Origin: Nocardioidaceae bacterium
Lineage (GTDB): Bacteria > Actinomycetota > Actinomycetes > Propionibacteriales > Nocardioidaceae
Direction of reading: 5' to 3'
Assembly: GCA_029266455.1 (NCBI GenBank)
Contig: JAQSWV010000031.1
Location: 1-35,044 of the forward strand
DNA length: 35,044 bases
Shown: piece by piece, positions 25,855 to 35,044 of the stretch
How the letters are laid out: the number at the start of each line of letters is the position of its first letter
Numbering within the stretch: the first letter of the stretch is position 1
Position numbers and translations under genes: made by a program
Notes under the pieces: generated by a model
What the model saw: the letters and a program-made list of their open reading frames with translations, nothing else
What the model was told of the DNA's origin: nothing
Databases searched by the model: none

Positions 25855-26793
25855 CTAGCCCCGGATCAGTGCCTGCACCGTGCGGGCGGTACTGGGGCGA
25901 CCCAGGTGCCCGGCCATCCACGTGCTGGTGCCGACCAGCCGCCTCAGGTCGATGCCGGTCCGCACGCCGAGCCCGTCGAGCATCCACACCAGGTCCTCGG
26001 TGGCGAGGTTCCCGGTGGCGCTCCTGGCGTACGGGCATCCGCCCAGCCCTCCGGCCGAGGCGTCGAATGTCGTGACGCCGGACCGCAGCCCGGCGAGAAC
26101 GTTCGCCAGCGCCTGTCCGTACGTGTCGTGCAGGTGCAGGGCCACCCTGCTCACGCCGACTCCGGCCGCGCCGAACGCGTCCAGCAGAGCGGTGACATGC
26201 CCCGGCGTACCGACACCGATCGTGTCACCGAGCGAGAGCTGTCCGGCACCGAGGTCGAGCAGCCGCCGGCCCGCCCCCACCACCTGCGCCAGCCCGACCG
26301 GTCCCTCGTCCGGGTCGCCGAAGCACATGGACAGGTAGGCCCGCACCTCGAGGCCCGCGTCGCGGGCACGGCGCACCACCGGCTCGAACATCGCGTACTG
26401 CTCGTCCAGGCCACGGTTGAGGTTGCGCCGCGCGAAGGTCTCGGTGGCACTCGCGAAGATCGCGACGTGCCGCACCCCCGCCTCGAGGGCGCGGTCGAGA
26501 CCGCGCTCGTTGGGGACGAGCACCGGGTACGCCGGCCCGGGCGGCAGACCCGAGGCCGCGAGACTCGCCACGAGCTCGGCCGCGTCAGCCAGCTGAGGCA
26601 CCCACCGCGGGTGCACGAAGCTGGTGGTCTCGACGACGGGCAGACCGGCCGCGACCAGCTGCTGGACGAAGTCGGCCTTGACCTGCAGCGGCACGATCGC
26701 GGACTCGTTCTGCAGGCCGTCGCGCGGTCCCACCTCGTACACGGTCACCGCGTCCGGCAAGGAGGGGTCGGGCACCACCTGCGGCAGGCTCAC
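25855..26793 (-). CDS. Hydroxymethylglutaryl-CoA lyase
   Basis: The 312-aa TIM-barrel enzyme splits HMG-CoA into acetoacetate and acetyl-CoA, the last step of leucine degradation. Signatures are 'VYEVGPRDGLQNE' (catalytic R24, D25), 'LHLHDTYGQALANV' (metal His pair) and the catalytic C253 loop 'GGLGGCPYARSATGN..TEDL'. The GTG start at 26793 overlaps the stop of the alpha carboxylase gene by 4 bp (GTGA) and has GGGAGG upstream. A longer open frame upstream lies entirely in that gene. Its place behind both carboxylase subunits defines the pathway. Confidence 0.93.
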   Translation of the reverse strand: MSLPQVVPDPSLPDAVTVYEVGPRDGLQNESAIVPLQVKADFVQQLVAAGLPVVETTSFVHPRWVPQLADAAELVASLAASGLPPGPAYPVLVPNERGLDRALEAGVRHVAIFASATETFARRNLNRGLDEQYAMFEPVVRRARDAGLEVRAYLSMCFGDPDEGPVGLAQVVGAGRRLLDLGAGQLSLGDTIGVGTPGHVTALLDAFGAAGVGVSRVALHLHDTYGQALANVLAGLRSGVTTFDASAGGLGGCPYARSATGNLATEDLVWMLDGLGVRTGIDLRRLVGTSTWMAGHLGRPSTARTVQALIRG

Positions 26794-28769
26794 GGGGTGC
26801 CTCCCGCGTCCTGGCCGCTGGCCGGGTCTACGCGGAACAGCAGCTGCCCGATCGGCACCCGCGCGCCTGGTGCGACGTCGACCAGCGCGACGGTTCCCGC
26901 GAGTGGGGCCGGCAGCGGGATCTCCATCTTCATCGCCTCCAGCACGCCGAGCGAGTCGCCGGCCTCGACGGCATCGCCGACCACGACATGCACGGCCAGC
27001 ACCGTCCCCGGCATCGGGGAGACGACGTCGCTGTCCCCGACCGCTGCGGGCACGTCGGGCGCGAACGCGTCCGGCCGGTCCAGGACGAAGATGTGGCCGT
27101 GGTGGGCGACGCTCACCCGGTGCCCGTCGACCCAGCACGCCCCATCGCCTCCGTGGTCACCGGGCGAGGCACCACCAGGGGCAGCCGGGACGTGGACCAC
27201 CCGTCCCTCGCCGCGGAACGACAGAGCCACCTGCGCGGGCGCCGGGGGACCACCGACCCGCCAGCCGTCGCCGACGCCGAAGGGATCGTCCGGGTCGGCC
27301 TCCGCCCGGGCGGCCAGCACCGACCGGGCGGCACGCTGCCACACCAGCTCGGGCAGCTCAGGGGCCGTGGTCGCGGCGGCCGCGGCAGGGCCGTCGTCAA
27401 GCCAGCCCGTGTCGATCGCGGCGTCCGCGTACGCGTCCGAGGCCGCCAGGTCGCGCAGGAAGCCGACGTTCGTGGTCAGGCCGACGATCGCGGTCTCATC
27501 CAGGGCCGCCACCAGGCGCAGCCGAGCCGCCTCCCGGGTGGCTCCGTGGGTGATCACCTTGCCCAGCAGGGGGTCGTAGGCTGGTGACACCTCGTGACCG
27601 GCTTCGAGAGCAGCGTCGACCCGGGCTCGCCCGGCGCGGGGCCAGTGCACCGCGATCGCCCGGCCCGCCTGCGGCAGGAAGCCGGAGTAGGGGTCCTCGG
27701 CGTAGACCCGGGCCTCGATCGCGTGCCCCGCCAGGGCGACCTGCTCCTGGGTCAGGCCCAGCGGGCGTCCGGCCGCGACGTCGAGCTGCAGGCGCACCAG
27801 GTCGAGACCGGTGACCGCCTCGGTGACAGGGTGCTCCACCTGCAGCCGGGTGTTCATCTCCAGGAAGAAGAACTCGTCGCCGGCGACGAGGAACTCGACC
27901 GTGCCGGCGTTGACGTAACCGACCCGGCGTGCGATCGCCACCGCCGCGGCGCACAGCCGCGCCCTGAGGCCGTCGCTGACCGTGGGCGCGGGCGCCTCCT
28001 CGAGAACCTTCTGGTGCCGCCGTTGCACCGAGCAGTCCCGCTCGTACAGGTGCAGACAGGTGCCGTGCGCATCGGCCAGCACCTGGACCTCGATGTGCCG
28101 CCCGTGCTCCACGAAACGCTCGAGCAGGAGGGTGTCGTCACCGAAGGCCGCCGCTGCCTCGCGCCGCGCCGCCGCGACCGCGGCCGGCAGCGCATCCGAG
28201 TCCCGCACGACGCGCATCCCCTTGCCGCCGCCGCCGGCCGCTGCCTTGACGAGGATCGGGTAGGGGACGACCTGGTGCGCGGCGTCCGCCCCCGGCAGCA
28301 GTACGTCGGTCCCCTCCGGCGCTGTCGCTGTGGAGACGTCGAAGGAAGGGATGACCGGCACCCCGGCCGACACGGCGACGTCGCGGGCACGGTCCTTGCG
28401 GCCCATCACCTCCAGCACCGCCGGCGGCGGACCGACGAAGACCAGGCCCGCCTCGGTGACCGCCCGGGCGAACGCCGCCTGCTCGGACAGGAAGCCGTAG
28501 CCGGGGTGCACCGCCTCGGCTCCGGACTCGCGACAAGCGTCGAGCAGCGCCTCGACCGACAGGTATGACTCGGCGGCCGGAGTGGCACCCAGGCGCACAT
28601 CGTCGTCCGCCGCGCGCACGTGCGGGGCGTCCCGGTCGGCGTCGGACCAGACCGCCACCGTGCGGATCCCGGCGGCGGTCGCGGCACGGATGACGCGGCA
28701 CGCGATCTCGCCGCGGTTGGCGACCAGCAGCGACCCGAAGGGCCTCGTGGACGGCGAGGGGTGCGTCAT
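26790..28769 (-). CDS. accA1: Acyl-CoA (methylcrotonyl-CoA) carboxylase alpha subunit
   Basis: The 659-aa protein has a biotin carboxylase domain (about 10-455: 'LLVANRGEIACRVIRAA', the ATP-grasp Gly-rich loop 'KAAAGGGGKGM', 'FLEMNTRLQVEHPVTE'), a linker domain, and a C-terminal biotinyl domain with acceptor K614 in EAMKMEIP. It carboxylates biotin with ATP and bicarbonate. The domain order is that of methylcrotonyl-, propionyl- or acetyl-CoA carboxylase alpha chains. The substrate is set by the beta chain, and the adjacent HMG-CoA lyase points to 3-methylcrotonyl-CoA. It starts 13 bp after the beta gene stop. It overlaps the lyase gene by 4 bp. Confidence 0.92.
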   Translation of the reverse strand: MTHPSPSTRPFGSLLVANRGEIACRVIRAATAAGIRTVAVWSDADRDAPHVRAADDDVRLGATPAAESYLSVEALLDACRESGAEAVHPGYGFLSEQAAFARAVTEAGLVFVGPPPAVLEVMGRKDRARDVAVSAGVPVIPSFDVSTATAPEGTDVLLPGADAAHQVVPYPILVKAAAGGGGKGMRVVRDSDALPAAVAAARREAAAAFGDDTLLLERFVEHGRHIEVQVLADAHGTCLHLYERDCSVQRRHQKVLEEAPAPTVSDGLRARLCAAAVAIARRVGYVNAGTVEFLVAGDEFFFLEMNTRLQVEHPVTEAVTGLDLVRLQLDVAAGRPLGLTQEQVALAGHAIEARVYAEDPYSGFLPQAGRAIAVHWPRAGRARVDAALEAGHEVSPAYDPLLGKVITHGATREAARLRLVAALDETAIVGLTTNVGFLRDLAASDAYADAAIDTGWLDDGPAAAAATTAPELPELVWQRAARSVLAARAEADPDDPFGVGDGWRVGGPPAPAQVALSFRGEGRVVHVPAAPGGASPGDHGGDGACWVDGHRVSVAHHGHIFVLDRPDAFAPDVPAAVGDSDVVSPMPGTVLAVHVVVGDAVEAGDSLGVLEAMKMEIPLPAPLAGTVALVDVAPGARVPIGQLLFRVDPASGQDAGGTP

Positions 28770-28782
28770 CGCAGTGGCCGCC

Positions 28783-30336
28783 CTACATCCGGAAGACGCC
28801 GTAGGACGCCTCCGGCAGTGGCGCGGAGGCGGCTGCAGCGAGCCCCAGCCCGAGCACGCGGCGGGTGTCGGCCGGCTCGATGACCCCGTCGTCCCACAGC
28901 CGTGCGGTGGCGTACCACGGCGAGCCCTGGGTCTCGTACTGGTCCCGGATGGACGTCTTGAACTGCTCCTCGTCGTCGGCGGACCAGCGGTCGCCGCCGG
29001 CCGCGAGCGTGTCGCGCCGCACCGTGGCCAGCACGGAGGCGGCCTGCTCGCCCCCCATCACCGAGATCCGGGCGTTGGGCCAGGTCCACAGGAACCTCGG
29101 GTCGTACGCCCGACCGCACATGCCGTAGTTGCCGGCGCCGAAGGAACCCCCGATGACGACCGTGAACTTCGGCACCACCGAGCAGGCGACCGCGGTCACC
29201 AGCTTGGCGCCGTCCTTGGCGATGCCACCGTTCTCGTAGTCGCGGCCGACCATGAAGCCGGCGATGTTCTGGAGGAAGACCAGCGGCACGCCGCGCTGGT
29301 TGGCCAGCTCCACGAAGTGGGCGCCCTTGAGCGCCGACTCGCCGAACAGGATGCCGTTGTTGGCGACGACGGCCACGGGGTAGCCCCACACCCGGGCGAA
29401 ACCGCAGACCAGCGTCTGGGCGTACAACGCCTTGAACTCGTGCAGGCGCGAGCCGTCGACCACGCGCCTGATGACCTCGCGCACGTCGTACGGCGCCCGC
29501 GGGTCAGCAGGCACCACGTCGCAGAGGCCATCGGGGTCGTCGGCCGGCTCCTCGACCGGGTGGCGGCGCAGGGTGGCGGGCGCAGGTCGCTCGACGGTGC
29601 CGACGACCGAGCGCACGATCGCGAGTGCCTCGTCGTCGTCGGCGGCCAGATGGTCGACGACACCGGACCGGCGCGCGTGCACATCGCCGCCGCCGAGGTC
29701 CTCGGCGGTCACGACCTCGCCCGTGGCGGCCTTCACCAGCGGTGGACCGCCGAGGAAGATCGTGCCCTGGTTCTTGACGATCACCGTCTCGTCCGACATC
29801 GCCGGAACATAGGCACCGCCGGCGGTGCACGAGCCCATGACGGCGGCGACCTGCGGGACCCCGAGGCGAGACAGCCTTGCCTGGTTGAAGAAAATACGCC
29901 CGAAGTGCTCCCGGTCGGGGAACACCTCGTCCTGGAGAGGCAGATACGCCCCACCCGAGTCGACCAGGTAGATGCAGGGGAGCAGGTTGTCGAGGGCCAC
30001 TTGCTGGGCGCGCAGGTGCTTCTTCACCGTGATCGGGTAGTAGGTACCGCCCTTGACGGTGGCGTCGTTGGCGACGACGACGCACTCCCGTCCGCCCACC
30101 CGCCCGATGCCGGTGACGATGCCGGCCGACGGGACCGCGCCGTCGTACATGCCGGTGGCGGCGAGCGGGCTGAGCTCGAGGAACGGTGAGCCCGGGTCGA
30201 GCAGGCGGTCCACGCGGTCGCGGACCAGGAGCTTGCCCCGGGCCGTGTGCCGGTCACGTGCCTGCGCGGAGCCTCCGCGTCGCACGGTGGCCAGTCGCTC
30301 GCGCAGCTCGTCGACCAGCACGCGCAGATCAGTCAC
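28783..30336 (-). CDS. accD1: Acyl-CoA (methylcrotonyl-CoA) carboxylase beta subunit
   Basis: The 517-aa carboxyltransferase has both crotonase-like halves. The N-terminal half has '[13 protein letters not shown]' and '[17 protein letters not shown]'; the C-terminal half has '[23 protein letters not shown]' (in parts) and '[22 protein letters not shown]' (in parts), typical of the methylcrotonyl-CoA type. It moves CO2 from carboxybiotin to the acyl-CoA. It is first in a beta-alpha-lyase operon for leucine breakdown. No isovaleryl-CoA dehydrogenase gene is present in the window. GTG 30336 is preceded by TAGCAT and exactly 6 nt, suggesting leaderless initiation. Confidence 0.92.
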
Positions 30337-30445: not shown

Positions 30446-31939
30446 TCATCCGGCCGCTGCTGTCGAGTCGGGTGGTTCGAGCGGAAGACGGACCTGGAAC
30501 CGAGTGTCGCCTGGCCGCGAGTCGACCCGCAGGTCGCCACCGTGGCGCTGGGCGACGATGCGGTAGGAGATGTCGAGGCCGAGCCCGGTTCCCGCACCGA
30601 CGGGCTTGGTGCTGAAGAACGGCTCGAAGATGCGACCGACGATGTCGTCGGGCACGCCCGGTCCGGTGTCGCCGATCTCGACCACGACGAAGTCGTCGTC
30701 GCGGCCGGTACGCACGGTCAGGGTCCCCGCACCGTCCACCCCGCCCATGGCGCTGATCGCGTTGTCCAGCAGGTTCGTCCAGACCTGGTTGAGCTCGGCA
30801 CCGTTGGCGTTGACCGCCGGCAGCGTGCGGTCGTAGTCCTTGACGAGGCGGATGCCCACGCCGAGCTTGGCGGCAAGCATGACCAGCGTCGAGTCCAGGC
30901 CCGCGTGGACGTCCGTGCTGGCGTAGGTGCCGCGGTCGAGCTGGGAGTACTGCTTGGCCGCGGCCACCAGCGCGGACACCCGGTCGACCGCGTCCTGGAT
31001 CTCGTTCATCAGCTGCTCGGTCTCGACCGTGCAAGTGATCCACCGCAGGGCGCCCTCCAGCTTGGCGCCGGTGGTGAGCGCCACCGAGGTGGCGACCCGC
31101 TCGAGGAAGTCGCGGTCGAGCCCGGCCGCGACCATGACCGGGGACAGGTCATACGCCCCGGGCACATCCCGGTCGTCGAGCCACTCGGCGATGCTCTCCT
31201 CGCGGTCGCTGGCCTCCAGCGGGGACAGGCTCGGTGCCTTGGCCACCCGTCCGACTGCGTCCTCCTGCAAGGTCGTGAGGCTCGCGAGCACCTCGGGGTC
31301 GAGCTCCCCGCTGGCCAGGCCGGCCAGCTGGTGCCGCATCGACGAGACCCGCTCGCGCAGGGACGAGGTGGCACGCGCCGCGGCCGCGGCCGGGTTGTTG
31401 AGCTCATGGGTGAGCCCCGCCGTCAGCTGGCCGAGAGCCAGCAACCGCTCGCGCTGGCCGACGATCGCCTCGTTCGCGCGCATCCCGACGAACAAGCCGT
31501 CCAGCAGATGCACGGCCATCGGGAACCAGGTGCGCACCATGTACGCGAAGTCCTCCGACGCGATCACGACGAACTCGCACGCGGTGATCGCGTAGACCGA
31601 GTGGGGGTAGTTCGCGGAGCCCTCGCCGACGAATGACTCGGTGGCGCCCGCGTAGGCACCCCGGCGGTCGGTACGGTTCAGCTCCACCTCGTCGCCCCGC
31701 ACCGTGCGACGCAGCGACACGGTGCCGCTCAGCAGCACGAACAGGCAGGTAGCCGTCTCGCCCTCGGAGTAGACCACACCCGCCGGCCGACTCTCGATCA
31801 GCGCGTGCTCGGAGATCCAGTCCAGCCGGTCGTCGTCCAGCGACTCGAACAGGAACAGCGAGCGGAGCAGGTCGCGCGACGGCCGGCGCGTCCCCTCCTG
31901 GCCGGCCGCCTGGTTCGCCGGGAGGTCGGGGGCGTTCAC
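30446..31939 (-). CDS. Histidine kinase with N-terminal cyclic-nucleotide-binding (Crp-like) domain
   Basis: The 497-aa soluble kinase has a Crp/Fnr-type cNMP-binding fold (about 25-145: 'LFLFESLDDDRLDWISEHA', 'LFVLLSGTVSLRR'). A dimerisation helix with phospho-acceptor H178 in 'LTHELNNP' follows, then a long middle region (200-340) and a catalytic ATPase: N393 box 'LLDNAISAM', 'DTGPGVP' (from D424), 'FEPFFSTK', 'GTGLGL' (450-455). The last steps sense a small molecule or redox state and phosphorylate the fused regulator encoded immediately upstream. There is no transmembrane segment. The start GTG overlaps the regulator stop (GTGA), so the pair is translationally coupled. Confidence 0.9.
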   Translation of the reverse strand: MNAPDLPANQAAGQEGTRRPSRDLLRSLFLFESLDDDRLDWISEHALIESRPAGVVYSEGETATCLFVLLSGTVSLRRTVRGDEVELNRTDRRGAYAGATESFVGEGSANYPHSVYAITACEFVVIASEDFAYMVRTWFPMAVHLLDGLFVGMRANEAIVGQRERLLALGQLTAGLTHELNNPAAAAARATSSLRERVSSMRHQLAGLASGELDPEVLASLTTLQEDAVGRVAKAPSLSPLEASDREESIAEWLDDRDVPGAYDLSPVMVAAGLDRDFLERVATSVALTTGAKLEGALRWITCTVETEQLMNEIQDAVDRVSALVAAAKQYSQLDRGTYASTDVHAGLDSTLVMLAAKLGVGIRLVKDYDRTLPAVNANGAELNQVWTNLLDNAISAMGGVDGAGTLTVRTGRDDDFVVVEIGDTGPGVPDDIVGRIFEPFFSTKPVGAGTGLGLDISYRIVAQRHGGDLRVDSRPGDTRFQVRLPLEPPDSTAAAG

Positions 31940-33621
31940 TGCTGCTCCAGATAGCGGTGCACGAGGGTCACCGCCAGCGCGCCCTCGCCGACGGCGGAGG
32001 CCACCCGCTTGACCGAGCTGGCGCGCACGTCCCCGGCCGCGAACACCCCGGGCACGCTGGCCTCGAGCAGGTACGGGTCGCGGGGCAGCGGCCAGCCGGC
32101 GGGCCGCCCGCCCCCCTCGGCCGTGTCCGGACCGGTGAGGACGAACCCGCCGCGGTCACGGTGGATGCGATCCGGCAGCCAGTCGGTGAACGGCTGGGCG
32201 CCGATGAACGCGTACAGGTAGCTGGCCTCGACGGTCTCGCTGGTGCCGTTCGTGACGTCGGTGAGGACGACGCGCTCCAGTCGGTCGGCGCCCTCGCAGG
32301 TGGACACCTCGGTGCAGGTGCGGACCTCGATGTTCGCGATCTTCCCGATCCGGTCGGTGAGGTAGCGCGACATCGAGAGCTCGATCGACGGCCCTCGGAC
32401 GGCAAGCGTCACCCGGGAGGCGGTCCGCGACAGGTGGACCGCGGCCTGGCCCGCCGAGTTGGCCCCACCGACGATCACGACGTGCTGGTCGTGGCAGTCG
32501 TCGCTCCCGGCGGCGGCCGAGCCGTAGTAGACCCCGCGACCGGTGAGCTCCTCGATCCCCGTCGCCGGGAGCCGCCGGTACTTCACCCCTGTCGCCAGCA
32601 CGACTGCGTGGCCGACGATCTGGCGGTCGGTCGTGTGCACCACGGAGCTCGAGCCACGGAACTCCAGGTGGCTCACCCGGGAGGCGCTCAGCATCTCGGC
32701 TCCGAATCGGGAGGCCTGGCGACGGGCACGCTCGGTGAGCTGGCCGCCCGATACCCCGTCGGGGAACCCGAGGTAGTTCTCGATCCGCGAGCTCTGCCCG
32801 GCCTGCCCTCCGACCACACCGCCCTCGAACAGCACGGTCTTGAGTCCCTCGGAGGCCGCGTACACGGCGGCCGACAGCCCGGCCGGCCCGCCGCCGATGA
32901 TGACGACGTCGTAGAGGTCGGACTGCGGCACGGTGTGCAGTCCGACCGTGGCCGCGACCTCGGTGAGGCTCGGTGCCCGCAGCGCAGCGCCGTCAGCAGT
33001 CAGCAGCAGCGGCACGGCGGAGTCGTCCGCGTCCGCGGCCGCCAGCAACCGGCGGCCCTCGGCCTCGTCGGCGGGCACCCACTGGTAGGGGACTCCACCT
33101 CGGGCCAGGAAGTCGCGCACGTCGTGCGAGGCGGCCGACCAACGGTGCCCGACGAGCCTGACCTCTGACTTCCTCGCGTCACCGCTGGACCGCCACGCGT
33201 CGATCATCTGGTCGAGGACGGGGTACAGCTTCTCCTCGGGCGGGTCCCACGGCTTCAGCAGGTAGTGGTCCACGTCGACGACGTTGATGGCGGCGATGGC
33301 CGCCTCGGTGTCGGCGTACGCGGTGAGCAGGGCGCGGCGGGCCTGAGGGAACAGGTCCATGGCGTGCTCGAGGAAGTCGATGCCGTTCATGTCCGGCATC
33401 CGGTAGTCGGCCAGCAGGGCCACTACCGGGTCGCCGCGCAACTTGATCTCCCGAAGCGCCGCCAGTGCGTCGTCCCCGGACTCGGCGCGCACGACGCGGT
33501 ACTGCTGGCCGTAGCGGCGACGCAGGTCGCGGGCCACCGACCGGGACACCGACGGGTCGTCGTCGACCGTGAGCAGCACCGGCCGGCCCGCCGGCGACGA
33601 CGCGGCGGGCGCCAGGCTCAC
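31936..33621 (-). CDS. Response regulator fused to a thioredoxin-reductase-like flavoprotein lacking the CxxC
   Basis: The 561-aa protein has three parts. (1) A receiver domain (14-140) with the acidic cluster D20-D22, phospho-acceptor D72 ('LLADYRMPDMNG'), T100 and K123. (2) A glutaredoxin-fold-like linker (about 152-234, 'GVPYQWV', 'PSLTEVAATVGL') with no cysteine. (3) A FAD/NAD(P) oxidoreductase of thioredoxin-reductase type (237-561), with 'VVIIGGGPAGLSAAVYAASEG', 'GGQAGQSSRIENYLGFP', second nucleotide fold 'VVIVGGANSAGQAA' and 'GVFAAGDVR'. Where thioredoxin reductase has CATC, this has 'YYGSAAAGSDDC' (one Cys, C376). It is a phospho-controlled flavoprotein, probably not a disulfide reductase. 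GTG 33621 overlaps the upstream zinc-finger stop (GTGA). Confidence 0.9.
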   Translation of the reverse strand: MSLAPAASSPAGRPVLLTVDDDPSVSRSVARDLRRRYGQQYRVVRAESGDDALAALREIKLRGDPVVALLADYRMPDMNGIDFLEHAMDLFPQARRALLTAYADTEAAIAAINVVDVDHYLLKPWDPPEEKLYPVLDQMIDAWRSSGDARKSEVRLVGHRWSAASHDVRDFLARGGVPYQWVPADEAEGRRLLAAADADDSAVPLLLTADGAALRAPSLTEVAATVGLHTVPQSDLYDVVIIGGGPAGLSAAVYAASEGLKTVLFEGGVVGGQAGQSSRIENYLGFPDGVSGGQLTERARRQASRFGAEMLSASRVSHLEFRGSSSVVHTTDRQIVGHAVVLATGVKYRRLPATGIEELTGRGVYYGSAAAGSDDCHDQHVVIVGGANSAGQAAVHLSRTASRVTLAVRGPSIELSMSRYLTDRIGKIANIEVRTCTEVSTCEGADRLERVVLTDVTNGTSETVEASYLYAFIGAQPFTDWLPDRIHRDRGGFVLTGPDTAEGGGRPAGWPLPRDPYLLEASVPGVFAAGDVRASSVKRVASAVGEGALAVTLVHRYLEQQ

Positions 33622-33881
33622 CCAGCCACCACGGCGTCGACGTAGCACCAGCGCCAGCTCTCGCCCGGCTCGAACGAGCGCACGACCGGGTGACCCGGAT
33701 CGCGCGCATGAGCACTGGCGTGCTGGTTGGGCGACGAGTCGCAGCATCCGACGTGTCCACACTCCATGCACAGGCGCAGGTGGACCCAGCGGTCGCCGGT
33801 GCGCAGGCAGTCCTCACAGCCCTGTGGTGTGCGGGGCTCCGGAGCGGTCGTCGCGGTGTCGAGGTGAGCGCAGCTCGGCAT
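33618..33881 (-). CDS. UBP-type zinc finger protein
   Basis: The 87-aa protein is a single ZnF-UBP domain. The ligand series C4-x-H6, C22-x2-C25, C38-x2-C41, C46, H54 and H64 is in the family order, and 'RWVHLRLCMECGHVGCCDSS' and 'ESWRWCY' match the conserved Arg/Trp positions. In eukaryotes this fold binds the free C-terminal Gly-Gly of ubiquitin, while bacterial members have no established ligand. ATG 33881 has a perfect AGGAGG upstream, with a possible -10 TAGACT further up (33922-33927). It is first in the operon with the fused regulator and kinase. Confidence 0.88.
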   Translation of the reverse strand: MPSCAHLDTATTAPEPRTPQGCEDCLRTGDRWVHLRLCMECGHVGCCDSSPNQHASAHARDPGHPVVRSFEPGESWRWCYVDAVVAG

Positions 33882-34001: not shown

Positions 34002-34793
34002 CTAGGCCAGCGGCCGGAGCTCGACGCCGGCCTGCTCGAGGGCAGCGCGTACGGCCCGGGCGACCTCGACAGCGCCCGAGGAGTCGGAGTGCACGCACAG
34101 AGACGCGACGCGCATCCGGACCTCGGTGCCGTCGGCAGCTTCGACGGTGCCCTGCTGGACCATGCGGACGGCCCGCCGGCAGACCTCGTCCAGGTCGGTG
34201 ATGACGGCTCCTGGTTCGGTACGAGGCACCAGCAGCCCGTCGGCGGTGTAGCCGCGGTCGAGGAAGCCCTCGGCCACCACGGGGACGCCTGCCGTCTCGG
34301 CACGCTCCGCCAGCCGCGTGCCCGGCTGGCAGAGCAGCGCCAGCTCACCCTGACCGGCTGCCGAGTACTCGAGGATCGCCTCGACCACCGCGCCGGCGTA
34401 GTCGTCGTGCTGGGTCGTCGCGTGATAGAGCGCGCCATGCGGCTTCAGATACGAGACGCGGGTGCCGGCGACCGCCGCCAGGCCTGACAGCGCCCCGAGC
34501 TGGAACAGCACGTCGTTGACGAGGCTCTGCTTCGGCACCTGGATGAACCGGCGCCCGAAGCCACGGAGGTCGTCGAACCCCACCTGAGCACCCACCCCGA
34601 CGCCCCTGGCCGCAGCGGTCTCACAGGTGCGCCGCAGGATGTCGGGGTCTCCGGCGTGGAATCCGCAGGCGACGTTCGCGTCGGTGACCAGACCGAGCAG
34701 CGCCTCGTCGTCGGCGATCGACCAGGCGCCGTAGCCCTCGCCGATGTCGCTGTTCAGGGACACGCTGACGGGCGCCGTACCAGCCTCAGCCAT
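34002..34793 (-). CDS. pxpA: 5-oxoprolinase subunit A (LamB/YcsF family)
   Basis: The 263-aa protein has the LamB/YcsF fold with 'LNSDIGEGYG' (13-22), 'NVACGFHAGDP' (40-50), 'VSYLKPHGALYH' and 'CVHSDSSGAVE'. With PxpB and PxpC it forms ATP-dependent 5-oxoprolinase, opening pyroglutamate to glutamate. PxpB and PxpC genes are not next to it within this window; the gene beyond it is divergent. The start at 34793 is inferred from the conserved N-terminus. A 9-codon ORF (from 34815) with a good -10 overlaps it, and the in-frame extension upstream to 34931 is not conserved-looking. Confidence 0.9.
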   Translation of the reverse strand: MAEAGTAPVSVSLNSDIGEGYGAWSIADDEALLGLVTDANVACGFHAGDPDILRRTCETAAARGVGVGAQVGFDDLRGFGRRFIQVPKQSLVNDVLFQLGALSGLAAVAGTRVSYLKPHGALYHATTQHDDYAGAVVEAILEYSAAGQGELALLCQPGTRLAERAETAGVPVVAEGFLDRGYTADGLLVPRTEPGAVITDLDEVCRRAVRMVQQGTVEAADGTEVRMRVASLCVHSDSSGAVEVARAVRAALEQAGVELRPLA

Positions 34794-34815
34794 GCGTGGA
34801 ACCAGCCTCTGCCAT
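34786..34815 (-). CDS. Nine-residue upstream ORF overlapping pxpA start (MAEAGSTHG)
   Basis: An ATG at 34815 begins a 9-codon frame ending TGA at 34788-34786, inside pxpA. Its first five residues (MAEAG) are the same as those of PxpA because a 15-bp segment is nearly duplicated 22 bp apart. TAACTT lies 6 nt upstream, so a leaderless transcript would start on this ATG and pxpA would need re-initiation. It may instead be a duplication scar. Confidence 0.35.
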   Translation of the reverse strand: MAEAGSTHG

Positions 34816-34821
34816 GCGCAG

Positions 34822-34827
34822 AAGTTA
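34822..34827 (-). promoter_or_regulatory. -10 box of a putative leaderless promoter (pxpA leader)
   Basis: TAACTT on the minus strand is 6 nt before ATG 34815, the start of the nine-codon upstream ORF. Confidence 0.35.
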
Positions 34828-34885
34828 GCGCGTGAGGGGAAACGGACGGACGACCCGGTCCCCGTCGACACGAAAGGACACCGGC

Positions 34886-35044
34886 ATGGCCACGACTTCC
34901 CCCGGCAACCACTCCCAGAGCCCCGGGACACCAGCGGGCAGCACGTCGGGCAGCGCGTCGGGCAGCACCAGCACGAGCAGGCACCACGAGGACCAGGACC
35001 GCATCATCGCGGAGCGCGAGCAGCAGCGCCGCGACGAGTACGGC
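34886..35044 (+). CDS. N-terminus of an uncharacterised protein (truncated by window end)
   Basis: ATG 34886 has AAAGGA about 8 nt upstream and opens a frame that runs off the right edge after 53 codons. The visible part is a disordered Ser/Thr/Gly/Pro-rich segment (1-32), then a charged stretch (RHHEDQDRIIAEREQQRRDEYG). Such N-termini often precede a membrane domain in actinobacterial proteins, but that part is not visible and I make no functional call. The gene diverges from pxpA, with 70-92 bp between starts. Confidence 0.55.
   Translation, partial: MATTSPGNHSQSPGTPAGSTSGSASGSTSTSRHHEDQDRIIAEREQQRRDEYG

Follow-up and report, generated by a model that had tools for sequence, protein, structure and literature searches.

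The window analysed here is a stretch of 35,044 nucleotides from a Nocardioidaceae bacterium (assembly GCA_029266455.1, contig JAQSWV010000031.1). It carries three overlapping minus-strand genes, which encode a UBP-type zinc finger (ZnF), a flavoprotein with an N-terminal receiver and a soluble histidine kinase with a Crp-like domain. On balance, their products probably act together as a two-component redox-signalling cassette in the cytoplasm, in which the ZnF would serve as an adaptor. An earlier note on this DNA had read the kinase, the regulator-flavoprotein and the ZnF as one system. Gene co-occurrence across actinobacteria was strongly in favour of this, and the retention of receiver residues tracked kinase linkage.

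Kinase linkage and the receiver

We counted gene neighbours at 80 named loci from actinobacteria and found the kinase gene directly downstream of the flavoprotein gene in 79. In the remaining locus (L093), a kinase match was located 1.2 kb downstream. Streptomyces, Nocardia, Rhodococcus and their relatives commonly carried the cassette, and pairs of kinase and flavoprotein were present in Mycolicibacterium, Micromonospora and Amycolatopsis as well.

The phospho-acceptor set of the window receiver was complete in the alignment (D20, D21, D72, T100 and K123). We compared the receivers of 137 distinct flavoproteins, 124 with an adjacent kinase and 13 without. The acidic pair, D72, T100 and K123 were all kept in 124 of 124 kinase-linked flavoproteins, and part of the set was lost in 11 of the 13 kinase-less ones. 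The two kinase-less copies with a full set were L084, which is cut near the contig end, and L093, with its kinase match at a distance. Because phospho-acceptor retention follows kinase linkage, the alignment speaks for a receiver that serves the kinase, and the kinase most likely phosphorylates it at D72.

The source genome (G000) contained six receiver-flavoprotein paralogues, the others being located on contigs C98, C21, C55, C104 and C35 (L015-L019). Besides the window copy, two had an adjacent kinase, and three were kinase-less with degenerate receivers. A class III nucleotidyl cyclase was the next gene in 5 of the 11 loci with a degenerate receiver (L019, L021, L023, L024 and L025). Two of these cyclases were called at L019:7963-9357 (Guanylate_cyc by Pfam) and L024:7741-9105, and the open reading frames (ORFs) overlapped in L019 and L024. 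In other flavoprotein relatives, near ZnF genes, a cNMP-binding domain replaced the receiver (L197, L203, L204 and L205). These cyclase neighbours and cNMP fusions connect other branches of the family with cyclic nucleotides.

The kinase matched cNMP_binding (E=4e-10, 40 bits) and HATPase_c (E=3e-24) in Pfam. In its structural model (mean pLDDT, the predicted local distance difference test, of 84.4), a Crp-like beta-roll (residues ~22-127) was followed by a long helix leading to H178, an all-alpha insertion (~215-286) and the ATPase domain. The kinase alignment showed no variation at H178 or in the HATPase motifs, and the H-box, N-box and G-boxes were intact.

A pattern search in 132 kinases found the canonical cyclic-nucleotide phosphate-binding cassette in two only (L201 and L206). 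It was not found in the kinases of the window clade, which had another conserved loop instead (RGxYxGAxxAYL...YxxS). Binding of cyclic AMP (cAMP) by the window-clade kinase was thus unsupported by the cassette pattern. DNR (2z69, E=2e-14), a Crp/FNR-type regulator of P. aeruginosa, ranked with the closest relatives of the Crp-like domain that have a solved structure. Unlike DNR, the kinase has no DNA-binding domain, and the Crp-like domain is fused to the kinase instead. Since the cassette differs in the window clade and DNR is among the nearest solved relatives, the kinase input is best called Crp-like and, judged from these comparisons, may do without a cyclic-nucleotide ligand in the window clade. 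The input domain appears to be exchangeable, as a paralogous pair in the source genome (L016) has a kinase with receiver-PAS-PAS input.

The main rival to the cassette reading is that the flavoprotein acts as a redox sensor feeding back on the kinase. Its FAD (flavin adenine dinucleotide)/NAD(P)H state would be read through the receiver and set the kinase/phosphatase balance, and the real output would lie elsewhere, in the target of the ZnF. The retained FAD and NAD(P) binding motifs, the lack of a thiol catalytic site in every member and the fusion of the ZnF to Na+/H+ antiporters elsewhere are all consistent with such a sensor. However, a receiver normally receives a signal, and the kinase-less fusions of a cNMP domain to the enzyme suggest that the enzyme module itself is regulated. 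We consider the sensor a serious but rather unlikely alternative to a flavoprotein that is controlled by the kinase.

Association of the zinc finger with the pair

The ZnF gene was linked to the pair in 36 of the 80 loci. In 35 of these it followed the kinase gene immediately and in the same orientation, and in one it lay upstream and was divergent. In a sample of 296 genomes of the phylum (flavoprotein threshold E<=1e-70), 68 had the ZnF and 62 had the flavoprotein, and the two occurred together in 48 (P=1e-26 without correction for phylogeny, odds ratio 37). In 18 of these genomes, the two genes were <=2.5 kb apart. The earlier note had named rare co-occurrence of the three families as refuting its system, and the counts run here point the other way. 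A chance neighbourhood of three genes was rejected, since the same set recurs in dozens of genomes.

The three components were also found in other arrangements. In L206, the kinase has a C-terminal zf-UBP (cNMP, HATPase and zf-UBP in one protein of 555 amino acids), and its gene abuts the flavoprotein gene. In L201, the genes run flavoprotein, kinase, ZnF, and the last of them overlaps the end of the kinase gene. The order of the window (ZnF, flavoprotein, kinase) recurred in a distant genome of a different family (G217, L202).

Several observations weigh against the cassette reading. Over half of the kinase-flavoprotein pairs had no ZnF beside them, so a ZnF in cis cannot be a strict requirement. 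ZnF genes were also frequent in other settings (fused to antiporters, or close to KatG), and the ZnF is therefore not confined to the cassette. Moreover, the counts given above are not fully independent, as within-genome paralogues and the sampled genomes are related. Family-level relatives of the window had the kinase-flavoprotein pair and no adjacent ZnF, and we therefore call the ZnF facultative.

Alignment and tree separated two ZnF subfamilies, one with the motifs GWW... and W[FY]W[ND]Y and a general one with RWVHLRLC... and WCYVD. The GWW type was nearly always encoded right after the kinase. The window ZnF fell into the general subfamily (B), together with the antiporter fusions and the upstream-placed copies, and was paired with a flavoprotein clade that usually has the GWW type. 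Because of this mixture, the association of ZnF and flavoprotein appears to have arisen at least twice, as far as a weakly resolved tree of 66 residues can indicate.

Alternatively, only the kinase and the flavoprotein would belong together, and the ZnF of the window genome would be an unrelated neighbour which merely overlaps. The missing ZnF in family-level relatives, the general subfamily and the placement upstream instead of downstream agree with this. The translational overlap with the flavoprotein gene, the identical gene order in the distant G217, the kinase-ZnF fusion and the genome-wide co-occurrence do not, and we judge an unrelated neighbour to be improbable.

The pocket of the zinc finger

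The closest solved relative of the window ZnF was 2IDA (E=2.3e-27), a zf-UBP protein from a bacterium, which shares the zinc-binding fold, the WCYVD end and the C-C-D motif. The human zf-UBPs of USP16, HDAC6 and USP20/33 have the zinc-binding fold as well. In zf-UBP ubiquitin binders, an Arg contacts the free Gly-Gly tail of ubiquitin. In a gapless alignment to USP16, the Asp of the ZnF falls on this Arg. The residue after C-C was Asp in 80 of 85 bacterial ZnFs, Glu in three, Asn in two and never Arg; the ubiquitin-contacting Arg was absent in all 85 aligned copies, including that of the window. The window ZnF differs from USP16 and HDAC6 in having Asp for the ubiquitin-tail Arg, and its host has no ubiquitin. 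The zf-UBPs of human USP20 and USP33 have an acidic pocket (E55 and D59 in USP20) and bind a [KR]xxL[NED] peptide, not ubiquitin (PMC13376213). From the Asp at the Arg site and this precedent, we infer by analogy that the ligand of the bacterial ZnF may be a peptide with a basic motif.

A ZnF that recognises Pup or another ubiquitin-like C-terminus would tie the system to protein tagging. The fold would suit this, the host genome has Pup, and the ZnF correlates with Pup (odds ratio 4.5). However, 20 of the 68 ZnF genomes had no Pup, so Pup is not needed by the ZnF, and 14 of those 20 had the flavoprotein. With the Arg replaced in the bacterial copies and the acidic-pocket relatives binding a peptide in place of ubiquitin, the link was unsupported by both co-occurrence and pocket residue, and we consider it very improbable.

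Outside the cassette, a zf-UBP was found at the C-terminus of Na+/H+ exchanger-like transporters (L002:680-2392 on contig C41 of the source genome, and L182:3252-5123). Read by eye, a ZnF gene was located near a KatG-like (catalase-peroxidase) gene in L173, L176 and L200. A cluster of a DAC-domain (diadenylate cyclase-like) gene, an MFS transporter gene and a ZnF gene recurred in L171, L175, L178, L180 and L209. It often included a DUF924-like gene, in some cases Na+/H+ antiporter-like genes, and it adjoined flavoprotein-kinase genes in L171 and L175.

Flavoprotein chemistry and proposed mechanism

The flavoprotein matched Response_reg (E=9.4e-13) and Pyr_redox_2 (E=5.4e-33) in Pfam. Its AlphaFold2 model (mean pLDDT 78.7) comprised the receiver (~12-145), a strand/helix order of the thioredoxin/glutaredoxin fold (~155-226) and a module resembling thioredoxin reductase (TrxR; ~234-560). 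Foldseek matched the model to TrxR and AhpF, and together with Pyr_redox_2 this places an FAD/NAD(P) oxidoreductase of the TrxR fold in the cassette. The glycine motifs for FAD and NAD(P) (GGGPAG and GGANSAG) and a GD motif were conserved in the family alignment.

At the CxxC site, the window flavoprotein has GSAA and its relatives have G-S/A-A/S-x. The CxxC of thioredoxin reductase was found in 0 of 137 aligned flavoproteins, and neither CxxC nor CxxS was found in the glutaredoxin-like domain of any of them. The NCBIfam TRX_reduct score was well under the cut-off (211 versus 343 bits). Because both the TrxR-like module and the glutaredoxin-like domain are without a CxxC, the flavoprotein is, by its sequence, a TrxR-fold protein that cannot be a classical disulfide reductase. 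Thioredoxin reductase activity was rejected, and a reading of the window enzyme as a thioredoxin reductase is contradicted. A lone cysteine (C376, window ~32494-32496) was kept in 120 of the 137 flavoproteins, although the catalytic cysteines were all absent.

The protein shares the FAD and NAD(P) domain fold with low-Mr thioredoxin reductase and AhpF (E down to 7e-44), and AhpF likewise has a thioredoxin-fold domain preceding the reductase. It differs from both in the missing CxxC motifs of the reductase-like and Trx/Grx-like domains and in the added receiver. YumC-type ferredoxin/flavodoxin NADP+ reductases have a TrxR-like fold without a disulfide site. Matches to such enzymes were found (for example 3ab1 and 5xhu), but the similarity was weak (E 1e-13 to 1e-17), and the flavoprotein family has a receiver or cNMP domain and the glutaredoxin-like domain fused on. 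An ordinary thioredoxin/disulfide reductase under two-component control is hardly credible given the complete lack of these thiol motifs, even with TrxR and AhpF as the best sequence and fold matches.

The coordinates of the cassette are given in the following table. Both junctions read GTGA, in agreement with the three minus-strand genes and two overlaps described in the earlier note. Its domain identities were borne out by Pfam, and its placement of the phosphosites at H178 and D72 was correct in the alignments.

Table 1. Genes and overlaps of the cassette in the window
Feature	Position	Strand	Description and evidence
ZnF gene	33618..33881	-	UBP-type zinc finger, 87 amino acids; first gene; Pfam zf-UBP, 51 bits, E=1.7e-13
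Overlap of ZnF and flavoprotein genes	33618..33621	-	GTGA, 4 bp; stop of ZnF, start of flavoprotein; sequence
Flavoprotein gene	31936..33621	-	Receiver, Cys-less glutaredoxin-like domain and Cys-less TrxR-like module, 561 amino acids; Pfam, alignments, AlphaFold2, Foldseek
Overlap of flavoprotein and kinase genes	31936..31939	-	GTGA, 4 bp; stop of flavoprotein, start of kinase; sequence
Soluble histidine kinase gene	30446..31939	-	Crp-like domain, DHp with H178, all-alpha insertion and HATPase, 497 amino acids; Pfam, alignment, model

The automatic ORF of the flavoprotein gene (611 amino acids) starts too far upstream, and the start at 33621 was preferred because homology and the GTGA overlap favour it. 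Upstream of the ZnF gene lies a clear ribosome-binding site (gaggaggcacgaATG). A promoter scan upstream of the three genes gave no match, and such a scan is uninformative for this host. The cassette is flanked upstream by the 5-oxoprolinase subunit PxpA (34002-34931) and downstream by a biotin-dependent acyl-CoA carboxylase pair (26790-30336).

In the proposed mechanism, the Crp-like domain of the soluble kinase would sense a small intracellular cue, in the window clade probably not cAMP via the classical pocket. The kinase would autophosphorylate at H178 and pass the phosphate to D72 of the receiver. This phosphorylation may rearrange the flavoprotein dimer and gate electron flow from NAD(P)H to FAD, or it may gate docking of the flavoprotein. 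Since there is no CxxC and no glutaredoxin cysteine, the electrons would leave by a route other than a thioredoxin disulfide, for which oxygen, a quinone, an electron-carrying protein or C376, the conserved single cysteine, are candidates. The ZnF would be a peptide-binding adaptor that holds the kinase, the flavoprotein and a target together. A broader version is tentative, and we think it possible but doubtful. Here, the output would be phosphorylation-gated electron transfer by a thiol-less flavoprotein, and the zf-UBP would be an acidic-pocket peptide reader docking the kinase, the flavoprotein and ion antiporters. The kinase-less pseudo-receiver paralogues, paired with the class III cyclases, would then add to this network, within one cell, another arm that makes nucleotides.

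The earlier note had called the system a candidate for an undescribed one. Burroughs, Iyer and Aravind (Mol BioSyst 2011, 7:2261, doi 10.1039/c1mb05061c) reportedly predicted that the ZF-UBP domains of bacteria belong to a novel redox signalling system that depends on cyclic nucleotides. This comparative-genomics prediction reportedly covers the system and, like the window, links a ZF-UBP, a cNMP-binding domain and a redox flavoenzyme in bacteria, so the idea of the system is not new. The window shares these components, with the ZF-UBP gene overlapping the flavoprotein gene in an operon. In the window, the Crp-like domain lies in a kinase and is without the canonical cassette, a receiver would control the enzyme, and the ZnF gene comes first. 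The 2011 paper is cited as ref. 9 in PMC4506424. In the literature, no experimental or review paper was found on the combination of ZnF, flavoprotein and kinase.

If the cassette reading is true, the output of this two-component system would be a redox flavoprotein in place of DNA binding. It would also give a fold known from ubiquitin biology a non-ubiquitin role and link cyclic-nucleotide signalling to flavin redox chemistry. With the pairing of D72 and H178, a site free of cysteines and Asp in place of Arg in the ZnF, the reading is easy to test directly.

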